In this document: in pieces, positions 29,506 to 31,978 of the stretch
How positions within the stretch are numbered: position 1 is the stretch's first letter
How the letters are laid out: every line of letters starts with the position of its first letter
Notes under the pieces: model-generated
Seen by the model: only the letters and a program-made list of their open reading frames with translations
Databases searched by the model: none
Told to the model about the DNA's origin: nothing
Made by a program: the position numbers and the translations under genes
Assembly: GCF_002441695.1 (NCBI RefSeq)
Contig: NZ_JXJW01000021.1
Span: 1 to 54,176 of the forward strand
From: Pseudolactococcus piscium
GTDB taxonomy: Bacteria; Bacillota; Bacilli; Lactobacillales; Streptococcaceae
Reading direction: 5' to 3'
DNA length: 54,176 nucleotides

Positions 29506-29510
29506 AGCTA

Positions 29511-29556
29511 AAAAACCCGCCCTATCTGGTGTTAAATCAGATAGGGCGGGTTTTTT
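29511..29556. terminator. terminator of the ireB operon
   Basis: An 18-bp GC-containing stem (29511-29528 with 29538-29555), including CCCGCCCTATCTG and its complement, followed by T's. Confidence 0.95.
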
Positions 29557-29599: not shown

Positions 29600-29652
29600 T
29601 TGACAATCAGGCGCTTAAATGATAAACTAACGTTAGCTAATTAAAACTAACG
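29600..29652 (+). promoter_or_regulatory. promoter with two AACTAACG elements upstream of the HTH/aminotransferase
   Basis: TTGACA (29600-29605), 17 bp, then TAAACT (29623-29628). AACTAACG occurs at 29625-29632, overlapping the -10 and lying within the 10-bp palindrome CTAACGTTAG (29627-29636). It occurs again at 29645-29652, 20 bp later and overlapping the ribosome site. Two same-strand copies two helical turns apart suggest cooperative binding by the HTH protein itself. Confidence 0.65.
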
Positions 29653-29663
29653 AGGAGTGTGGC

Positions 29664-31085
29664 ATGGAAAATAAGTTGATTGAACTCAGAGAAAAATCAG
29701 GATTTAGCCAAGCAGAAGTCGCCAGGAAGATTGGCGTTTCTAAGCCATCTTATTGGGCTTGGGAAAAAGGAAATGCGAAGCCAAAAGAAGAAAGTCTGCA
29801 AAAGTTAGCTGTTTTATATGACGTTGCCATAGAAGAACTAACGACAGAAACTAACGAAACGGAGAAAGTGATGTCAACATTTGAAAAATCGAGTAAATTA
29901 GAACATGTAGCCTATGATATTCGTGGTCCTGTTTTAGATGAAGCTAACCGCATGCGTGCAAATGGCGAAAAGATTCTACGGTTAAATACAGGCAATCCAG
30001 CTGAGTTTGGTTTTACTGCACCCGATGAAGTGCTTAGAGATCTAATCATGAATGCACGCGACAGTGAAGGCTACTCTGACAGTAAAGGTATCTTTAGTGC
30101 TCGTAAAGCAATCATGCAATATTGCCAGCTTCATGGCTTTCCAAATGTAGATGTTAATGATATCTATACGGGTAATGGTGTGAGTGAGTTAATCGCCATG
30201 GCCATGAATGGGCTTTTGAATACAGGAGATGAAGTCCTGATACCCATGCCTGACTATCCGCTTTGGACAGCATCTGTTAGTTTAGCAGGTGGGCATGCGG
30301 TTCATTATCTGTGTGATGAAGGGGCTGAGTGGTATCCGGATATTGCAGATATTAAATCAAAAATTACATCTAATACCAAAGCAATCGTCATCATTAATCC
30401 TAATAATCCAACGGGTGCGGTCTATCCACGTGATATTCTGCTAGACATTGTTGAAATTGCCCGTCAAAATGACTTGATTATCTTTTCAGATGAGATCTAT
30501 GACCGAATTATTATGGATGGCATCAAACATATTCCCATTGCCAGTTTAGCACCAGATTTATTTGTCGTGACGATGAATGGCTTATCAAAATCGCACCGTG
30601 TAGCCGGATTTCGTGTTGGGTGGATGGTGCTTTCAGGAGATAAAAGTCGCGCTAGAGGCTATATAGAAGGTCTAGATATGCTGGCTAATATGCGCTTGTG
30701 CTCAAATGTCTTAGCACAGCAAGTCATCCAAACCTCTCTGGGTGGGACACAATCCGTGGATGAACTCTTGTTACCGGGAGGTCGCATCTATGAGCAACGT
30801 GAATTTATCTATAAGGCCATGAATGAAATTCCAGGAATTTCAGCAGTCAAACCTAAGGCAGCATTCTATATTTTCCCTAAAATCGATACGGCGAGATATA
30901 ATATCCATAACGATGAACAATTTGTTTTAGATTTCCTCAAGCAAGAGAAGATTATGTTGGTTCATGGCCGCGGCTTTAATTGGAAAGATCCTGACCATTT
31001 CCGTATTGTTTATATGCCACGAGTAGATGAACTTGCTGTTATTCAGGAGAAGATGACACGCTTCTTACATAAGTATCGTCAGTAA
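29664..31085 (+). CDS. XRE-type HTH domain fused to class I/II aminotransferase (alanine aminotransferase-like)
   Basis: 473 residues. Residues 1-60 are an XRE HTH (LREKSGFSQAEVARKIGVS, AWEKGNAKPKEES). A linker of about ten residues leads to a complete fold-type I aminotransferase from residue 70: NPNNPTG, SDEIYD, PLP-binding K309 in GLSKSHRVAGFRVGW, and the C-terminal Arg region. The enzyme part resembles AlaA/AlaT, which interconvert pyruvate and alanine. GAGGAG precedes ATG 29664. An in-frame ATG at 29871 with GGAG 6 bases before it could yield the enzyme alone. codY follows. Confidence 0.92.
   Translation: MENKLIELREKSGFSQAEVARKIGVSKPSYWAWEKGNAKPKEESLQKLAVLYDVAIEELTTETNETEKVMSTFEKSSKLEHVAYDIRGPVLDEANRMRANGEKILRLNTGNPAEFGFTAPDEVLRDLIMNARDSEGYSDSKGIFSARKAIMQYCQLHGFPNVDVNDIYTGNGVSELIAMAMNGLLNTGDEVLIPMPDYPLWTASVSLAGGHAVHYLCDEGAEWYPDIADIKSKITSNTKAIVIINPNNPTGAVYPRDILLDIVEIARQNDLIIFSDEIYDRIIMDGIKHIPIASLAPDLFVVTMNGLSKSHRVAGFRVGWMVLSGDKSRARGYIEGLDMLANMRLCSNVLAQQVIQTSLGGTQSVDELLLPGGRIYEQREFIYKAMNEIPGISAVKPKAAFYIFPKIDTARYNIHNDEQFVLDFLKQEKIMLVHGRGFNWKDPDHFRIVYMPRVDELAVIQEKMTRFLHKYRQ
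29836..29873 (+). promoter_or_regulatory. two more AACTAACG copies and an internal translation start
   Basis: AACTAACG recurs at 29836-29843 and 29849-29856, in the DNA encoding the linker. GGAG (29861-29864) is then followed, 6 bases later, by ATG 29871. That ATG begins STFEKSSKLEHVAYDIRG, the usual N-terminus of stand-alone alanine aminotransferases. This looks like a retained promoter/start region of a formerly separate enzyme gene. Confidence 0.55.
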
Positions 31086-31112: not shown

Positions 31113-31156
31113 AATTTTCTGAATATTGTTGTATTTCTGAGTTATTTTGTTATAAT
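31113..31156 (+). promoter_or_regulatory. CodY box and extended -10 of codY
   Basis: AATTTTCTGAATATT (31113-31127) matches the CodY consensus AATTTTCWGAAAATT at 14 of 15 positions. TGTTATAAT (31148-31156) is an extended -10 about 20 bases downstream. The site therefore lies over the -35 region and predicts autorepression. Confidence 0.8.
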
Positions 31157-31189: not shown

Positions 31190-31978
31190 ATGGCTACTTT
31201 ATTAGAAAAAACAAGAAAAATCACAGCGATTTTACAAGAAGGGTTAAATAATTCAAGTGAAGAATTACCCTATAAAGGTTTATCAGAACGTCTATCAGCA
31301 GTGATCGACTGTAACTCTGTCGTTATTGACGGACACGGTGATGTACTTGGCTATGCAATGCCATATAAGACAAACAACGACCGTGTTGAGGCGATGTTTG
31401 ATAAACGCAAACTGTCGACTGAATATGTGCAAGTTGCCTCACGTACTTATGATACTGAAGCAAACCTATCATCAGATGCGCTGTTATCTTTGTATCCACA
31501 AGAAGTCGTAAAAGACTACCCAAATGGTAAAACAACAGTGGCACCGATTTACGGTAGTGGCTTACGACTAGGAACATTTATCATCTGGCGCAACGAAGGC
31601 GAGTTTGATGAAGAAGATCTTGTCTTGGTAGAGATGGCAACAACGGTTATCGGTATCCAATTATCAAATCTACAGATTGAAAAAATGGAAGAAAGTATCC
31701 GTAAATCAGCAGCTGTTAACATGGCAGTCAGCACTTTATCTTATTCTGAAATGAAAGCTGTTAAAGCGATTCTTGAAGAACTTGGTGGAGAAGAAGGCCG
31801 TTTGACAGCCTCAGTGATTGCGGATAAAATCGGTATCACACGTTCAGTTATCGTCAATGCATTACGTAAACTTGAATCAGCCGGTATTATTGAATCTCGT
31901 TCTCTTGGTATGAAAGGCACTTATCTAAAAGTTGTCAATACTGGTATCTACGAGAAACTTGAAGGCCGTAACTTCTAA
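31190..31978 (+). CDS. codY: GTP/BCAA-responsive global repressor CodY
   Basis: 262 residues, normal CodY length. Residues 1-155 are the GAF domain that binds branched-chain amino acids; residues about 180-255 hold the winged helix ([21 protein letters not shown]). It represses nitrogen and amino-acid genes when isoleucine, leucine and valine are plentiful; the lactococcal protein is reported not to respond to GTP. Likely local targets by knowledge of the regulon are its own gene and dtpT, but only its own promoter shows a good box. GGGAGA precedes ATG 31190. Confidence 0.98.

Follow-up and report, generated by a model that had tools for sequence, protein, structure and literature searches.

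Can a metabolic enzyme act as the repressor of its own gene? This question is raised by an open reading frame of Pseudolactococcus piscium in which a helix-turn-helix (HTH) domain precedes a complete aminotransferase, with identical octamers both at the promoter and in the DNA that encodes the linker. The gene was analysed within a stretch of 54,176 nucleotides (here: the window). In the initial annotation it was proposed that the HTH binds these octamers and represses the gene, perhaps depending on pyridoxal phosphate (PLP) or amino-acid binding. Overall, the case for the promoter has become stronger than first stated, the cases for the linker and for a second isoform have become weaker, and the position next to codY turned out to be ordinary.

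Anatomy of the fusion and identity of its enzyme

The upstream genes are closed by a strong terminator, so that the fusion has its own promoter. The gene and its surroundings comprise the following features.

29510–29556, + strand: intrinsic terminator of the upstream genes; 20-pair stem with 9 G-C, T run
29664–31085, + strand: HTH-aminotransferase fusion, 473 aa, by open reading frame and domain matches
29679–29840, + strand: HTH_3 domain, residues 6–59 by Pfam, kin to HTH-S24 repressors by the HTH tree
29871–31085, + strand: AlaA-type aminotransferase domain, end to end with 4cvq (E 9.6e-178)
31190–31978, + strand: codY (TIGR02787, E 6.7e-109), outside the proposed device

The match to HTH_3 (E 1.5e-12) establishes the presence of an XRE-type HTH, while the match of residues 103–453 to Aminotran_1_2 (E 3.5e-48) does the same for a fold-type-I PLP domain. 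The N-terminal domain matched HTH_3, HTH_31 and HTH_19 only. In the Pfam domain search, neither a GntR-type winged HTH nor a Peptidase_S24 domain was found in the protein, and a shikimate-kinase-like domain is likewise absent, its place being taken by the aminotransferase domain. In a structure model generated with AlphaFold from 8 sequences, the HTH is confident (blocks of 76–90) and contains five confident helices; the enzyme part was poor (mean pLDDT 47.3) and was left out of further use.

The 404-residue part that starts at Met70 aligns over residues 1–404 with residues 27–430 of AlaA from E. coli (4cvq). Its catalytic stretches GLSKSHRVAGFR align with GLSKTYRVAGFR of AlaA, and the presumed catalytic residues N248, D276, Y279, K309, R317 and R447 are invariant in all ten fused proteins of the genus. 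The best family is PRK08363, the NCBIfam equivalog of alanine aminotransferase. As the score of 344.6 bits lies below the equivalog cut-off of 534, the name of the enzyme rests on its similarity to AlaA. Judged from its sequence, the domain is predicted to be a glutamate-pyruvate aminotransferase of the AlaA type and looks intact.

The position right before codY had been taken as a hint of a role in amino-acid homeostasis. This adjacency says little about the fusion, because it is common without it: outside the genus, 18 of 31 unfused loci have codY within 1.5 kb, as do 12/12 loci within the genus. Unlike the rest of the genus, L. insecticola (L036 / L128) has about 1.3 kb between the fusion gene and codY. 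Upstream of codY, at 31113–31127, stands AATTTTCTGAATATT, presumably one mismatch away from the CodY box; a similar sequence occurs in the other downstream stretches listed, except that of L. insecticola. This suggests that codY may be autoregulated via AATTTTCTGAATATT.

Half-sites at the promoter and in the linker

The locus was compared in 12 genomes of the genus, the own genome included. Ten carry the HTH fusion, and two (G006 and G007) carry the enzyme without HTH. In seven of the 11 others the locus is identical to that of Lactococcus raffinolactis, L. plantarum, L. chungangensis, an L. plantarum MAG, L. laudensis, L. insecticola or a Streptococcaceae MAG. In 2025 this group was transferred to Pseudolactococcus (PMC12281737). 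The features of the promoter and of the linker DNA are listed below.

29600–29628, + strand: promoter TTGACA-17-TAAACT (-35 at 29600–29605, -10 at 29623–29628), 10/12 consensus bases
29625–29632, + strand: half-site 1, AACTAACG, overlapping the -10; exact octamer in 10/10 fused genomes
29631–29638, - strand: half-site 2, inverted (CGTTAGCT on the + strand, AGCTAACG on the - strand, one mismatch); GTTAG core in 10/10
29645–29652, + strand: half-site 3, AACTAACG; CTAACG core in 10/10, exact octamer in 7/10 fused genomes
29836–29843, + strand: half-site 4, AACTAACG, in the linker DNA
29849–29856, + strand: half-site 5, AACTAACG, in the linker DNA
29861–29873, + strand: possible internal start, GGAG-6 bases-ATG (GGAG at 29861–29864, in-frame ATG at 29871; -6.6 kcal/mol)

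The annotated promoter, with the first octamer over its -10, was found as described. Its consensus match is weak by itself, since shuffles of the promoter stretch gave 0.6 equally good hits. The four annotated copies of AACTAACG are likewise all present on the + strand (29625, 29645, 29836 and 29849), and the window contains no others. Two of them had been assigned to the promoter; a third, inverted half-site between them (29631–29638) had been missed. The resulting order is direct-inverted-direct, TAAACTAACGTTAG-N-CTAACG, and half-site 3 ends directly before the Shine-Dalgarno sequence AGGAG (29653–29657). Half-sites 1 and 2 directly adjoin each other, an arrangement that the S24 operators do not show, and together form CTAACGTTAG.

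The raw count of AACTAACG in the window is mildly unusual: 100 shuffles contained 1.39 copies on average, and two of them reached four. The own genome (2.405 Mb) holds 46 copies, compared to 249 of the reversed octamer, and 42 of the 46 lie away from the fusion gene. At this rate about 0.004 copies would be expected per 232 bp. The octamer is thus unremarkable genome-wide, whereas its cluster at the fusion gene is exceptional. The idea that an octamer at chance rate would speak against a function is answered in two parts: the frequency is indeed near or below chance, yet the cluster is unique and conserved in homologues. A scan of the 46 places for close pairs, as had been proposed, revealed a sole other one, the inverted pair at C13:27481/27503 (G000:C13:27481–27510). 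It was discarded as a terminator hairpin, with a T run behind it and convergent genes on either side.

TAAACTAACGTTAG is identical in 10/10 fused genomes, while the surrounding DNA varies between species. The pattern CTAACGTTAG-N9..12-CTAACG has exactly one match per fused genome (10/10), always at the fusion promoter, and none in the unfused G006 and G007; the reversed control has none in the 12 genomes. The 4.2-kb loci of G006 and G007 are also devoid of AACTAACG. The spacer between GTTAG and CTAAC at the fusion promoter is N10 in six genomes and N11 in four, and never N9. Conservation in related genomes, the check that had been suggested for all four octamers, therefore holds for the promoter and, in part, for the linker: the octamer at 29849 is kept in 9/10 fused genomes (absent from the Nc350 MAG) and that at 29836 in 4/10. 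In 3/10 there is an additional octamer where the HTH coding region begins.

A regulon beyond the own gene was not found with AACTAACG and CTAACGTTAG in the own genome or in the 12 genomes. CTAACGTTAG is unique in the own genome, the flanks of 30 of the 46 AACTAACG places were examined, and hits of AACTAACGTTAGTT with up to two mismatches were outnumbered by those of its reversed control in all 12 genomes. As there is no second target gene, binding cannot be deduced from a regulon.

The two linker octamers stand in different reading phases and are therefore not a coding repeat. In simulations, the chance that codon choice gives the HTH-linker region one or more octamers was 2–11% per gene. Where all nine genomes that have the linker site share a residue, the Thr codons are identical in all nine in 1/12 columns, this one being the ACT of the linker, and the Asn codons in 9/18. 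Conservation of the linker octamer beyond codon choice is suggestive, not strong, and a role of this half-site as auxiliary operator is plausible.

The linker also contains the possible internal start, where GGAG, 6 bases and an in-frame ATG were correctly noted to open a complete aminotransferase (404 aa, AlaA end to end). Its Shine-Dalgarno energy is matched by 8.6% of the 269 internal ATGs of window open reading frames. The ATG is invariant in 10/10 fused genomes, although neighbouring residues vary. The energies range from -6.4 to -7.3 in six of them (reached by 6–9% of the 269) and from -2.7 to -3.9 in four (32–47%); in L. plantarum the internal site, at -7.3, is the stronger of the two (main site: -3.6). 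Of the predicted pair of isoforms, the start codon thus stands throughout, and a strong ribosome site in six of ten. For the window's species and L. plantarum a pair of isoforms is plausible, whereas for the raffinolactis group it is doubtful; overall, the short isoform is speculative. It had also been supposed that the linker sites reflect the operator of a once separate enzyme gene. Modest support comes from 8/10 genomes (not L. insecticola and the Nc350 MAG), where no stretch of the enzyme is as similar to the main leader as the linker is. The octamer accounts for most of this resemblance. The linker may have originated as a 5' leader.

HTH-S24 repressors and the proposed autorepression

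Within the genus, the nearest HTHs are those of HTH-S24 (LexA/HdiR-like) proteins of about 230–240 aa; a Pfam run on two paralogues gave Peptidase_S24 at E 2.9e-21 and 7.7e-21. They fall into class 1 (motif NTSYFAWE), for which 11/11 listed promoters of the own gene carry GTTAG-N9-CTAAC immediately after the -10, and class 2 (motif RPAY), with GGTAAGT-N5-ACTTACC at the own gene in 6 listed promoters. The latter operator, more fully (GT)GGTAAGT-N5-ACTTACC(AC), also lies behind the own -10 (L075–L078, L083, L084). The fused HTHs cluster together in the HTH tree (96/95), and their group is placed with class 2 (97/95). Their mean identity is 48% to class 2 (8 rows) and 42% to class 1 (11 rows). 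The half-site of the fusion is of the class 1 type, whereas that of class 2 is CTTACC.

The sequence GTTAGT-N7-ACTAAC occurs at 29 places in the 12 genomes (0–4 per genome), compared to 6 for the reversed control, and 20 of these were examined as loci. Seven precede dinB, the box starting 39–40 bases before the start codon (G000, G001, G005, G007, G009, G010, G011); three belong to umuC-like genes, one each to uvrA (G006) and recA (G004), and four to a class 1 S24 gene. Three more stand before a 150-aa protein of no assigned family, and one before no clear gene. Pfam agreed for one example each of dinB, umuC-like, uvrA and recA, the other copies being judged by sequence, and gave no match for one example of the 150-aa protein. 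The boxes of the latter lie near 123196 of G000:C45 and at L185 and L193 (G003). The GTTAG-N9-CTAAC boxes of the own genome include G000:C11:9402–9420 and C3:7516–7534; others are found at L180–L196. Very probably, AACTAAC is the half-site of the SOS-type repressor of the genus, this repressor being an HTH-S24 protein, and GTTAG-N9-CTAAC is its SOS box. In the fusion gene, a metabolic gene appears to have taken over such a half-site. For the fusion HTH, binding is predicted from its kinship and the matching half-site, while the spacing differs from that of the SOS box.

In the mechanism that we propose, the XRE HTH of the fusion would bind the AACTAAC(G) half-sites. Since the three promoter sites cover the -10, the presumed transcription start and the leader, the bound enzyme would block RNA polymerase and set its own level via negative feedback. 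The aminotransferase dimer, replacing the S24 domain as the dimerising part, would most likely position one HTH on each of the inverted half-sites 2 and 3, spanning the transcription start, with half-site 1 in the -10 assisting. The linker half-site would probably strengthen binding or serve as a roadblock. The new dimerising domain would also explain the inverted spacing of 10 or 11 instead of 9. We infer, with a probability of roughly three in four, that the fused HTH represses its own gene in this manner, where binding, repression and dimer geometry are all predicted. The claim of self-binding and autorepression made at the outset is well supported on comparative grounds, namely the cluster in 10/10 fused and 0/2 unfused genomes and the kinship with HTH-S24. 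Because the ten genomes are related, their co-occurrence counts as few independent events. Other points against the claim are the abutting half-sites 1 and 2, the placement of the fused HTHs with class 2 despite their class 1 half-site, and the gaps in conservation of the linker octamers.

Three other explanations were weighed against this autorepression. The locus could belong to the SOS regulon, with the class 1 HTH-S24 repressor binding the AACTAAC half-sites and the fused HTH idle or secondary; the half-site is identical to those of the SOS-like boxes, and one of these boxes, that in C3, accompanies a class 1 gene of the own genome. This is improbable, however. The fusion spacing is never N9, the HTH is under purifying selection, and G006 and G007 retain the class 1 gene and its N9 box but lack both the fused HTH and an operator at the aminotransferase gene, which makes the S24 repressor unlikely as the main binder. 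It is less probable again that the sites are fossil, i.e. that HTH, promoter and sites arrived together and persist by descent without function, the enzyme being made mainly from the internal ATG. Two lineages do live without HTH and operator, and the invariant internal ATG, together with the favourable internal Shine-Dalgarno of L. plantarum, would fit. Nevertheless, the HTH has a dN/dS of 0.16, the core operator is identical in 10/10 genomes although the codons of these genes are only about half identical in most species pairs, and the internal Shine-Dalgarno is weak in 4/10.

The least credence is given to an action at the RNA level, in which the repeat would form a hairpin in the leader ahead of the Shine-Dalgarno sequence, or to a minus-strand terminator. 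Half-sites 2 and 3 do form an inverted repeat in the leader, which scores terminator-like on the minus strand. The leader, however, folds no better than its shuffles (z 0.60; 150/200 as good), half-site 1 lies in the -10 and is for the most part not transcribed, the linker site has no pairing partner, and the DNA-repair genes of the genus are preceded by the identical half-site.

Autorepression by the fused HTH thus remains the preferred reading. A bolder version, which we regard as possible but rather doubtful, holds that the fusion is a working natural equivalent of the laboratory-built link between enzyme and regulator, in which a fully active aminotransferase dimer took over an SOS-type HTH with its half-sites and re-spaced them to suit its own dimerisation. 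Its catalytic state (PLP or PMP form, or alanine, pyruvate or glutamate bound) would release the promoter, and the HTH-free isoform would provide plain catalysis. Modulation of the promoter by substrate or PLP, as first suggested, is speculative.

History of the fusion and comparison with known systems

The survey covered 59 relatives and a family search of 335 genomes, 322 of which had a match at E <= 1e-150. Among the matches listed, those starting from residues 1–3 come exclusively from this genus (10 genomes, the own one among them); as the family count derives from the matches listed, a lower-scoring fusion outside the genus may exist. On the DNA tree of the enzyme, a single clade of fused genes was rejected (log-likelihood 50.2 lower, AU p 1.8e-5). 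The protein tree places G006 and G007 in the same way, but its best-supported branches alone do not reject one fused clade. The simplest reading would be a single acquisition at the root of the genus followed by two losses of the HTH together with its operator; several gains are also possible. This history is provisional, since G006, G007 and the raffinolactis group share, by eye, an upstream promoter region. In the raffinolactis group, a degenerate second promoter-like region lies about 140 bases upstream of the fusion promoter (L034, L035, L037), which on visual inspection seems to be intact and in use in the unfused G006 and G007.

In the fused genes, dN/dS is lowest in the enzyme (0.022), followed by the HTH (0.16) and the linker (0.53), which indicates that both domains are kept under purifying selection. 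The same-codon divergence is 0.537 for the HTH versus 0.498 for the enzyme (55 of 350 enzyme windows are as high). The HTH codons have thus diverged as much as those of the enzyme, and the module is old and kept. A recent spread of the HTH, suggested by a low dS of the HTH (0.30 versus 0.90), was dismissed because the same-codon rates of the two domains agree.

In the literature searched, no published description of an HTH-aminotransferase fusion was found. The protein has, at the level of sequence, what an enzyme-repressor chimera requires, and the fusion apparently represents a real, undescribed variant of such chimeras. Unfused orthologues of Streptococcaceae and AlaA (4cvq) match the enzyme over its whole length, and codY is often adjacent to the orthologues; they differ in having neither the HTH nor the AACTAACG operator. 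With the HTH-S24 repressors the fusion shares a related HTH, the class 1 half-site and the placement of the operator immediately after its own -10. In contrast, it contains no S24 domain, its spacing is N10/N11 instead of N9, and it has an extra abutting half-site. For HdiR of Lactococcus lactis, the accessible part of one paper quotes a different consensus, tttATCAGtTtttCTGATaaa (PMC1592510), and the accessible part of another does not contain the HdiR operator (PMC5742171).

The MocR/GabR/PdxR regulators combine a GntR winged HTH with an aminotransferase fold, as far as the consulted parts of the sources describe them (PMC5320631, PMC6677901). In both systems a DNA-binding domain precedes a fold-type-I PLP domain. 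The fusion, however, carries an XRE/HTH_3 domain instead of the GntR winged HTH, and its PLP domain is a full relative of AlaA.

The closest parallel is found in BzdR, as described in the available text of PMC3602430. BzdR is without kinase activity and controls a catabolic promoter, whereas the engineered Q1 chimera, an XRE-type HTH joined to shikimate kinase, retained both catalysis and promoter repression. BzdR-like regulators are thought to begin as enzymes that gain a DNA-binding domain, an intermediate that was built in the laboratory (PMC3602430). As in BzdR and Q1, the XRE HTH of the fusion stands ahead of a metabolic enzyme domain. Q1 is laboratory-made, while the fusion is natural, contains a PLP aminotransferase and would, in our proposal, act on the promoter of the gene that encodes it. 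Restricted to one genus among those examined, with two apparent losses, it looks like a natural intermediate on the way from enzyme to regulator: an enzyme held by strong purifying selection, a recruited HTH and an operator of its own. It makes testable what Q1 combined by design, i.e. catalysis and repression together, and in addition gating by substrate and the re-spacing of an operator after a swap of the dimerising domain.
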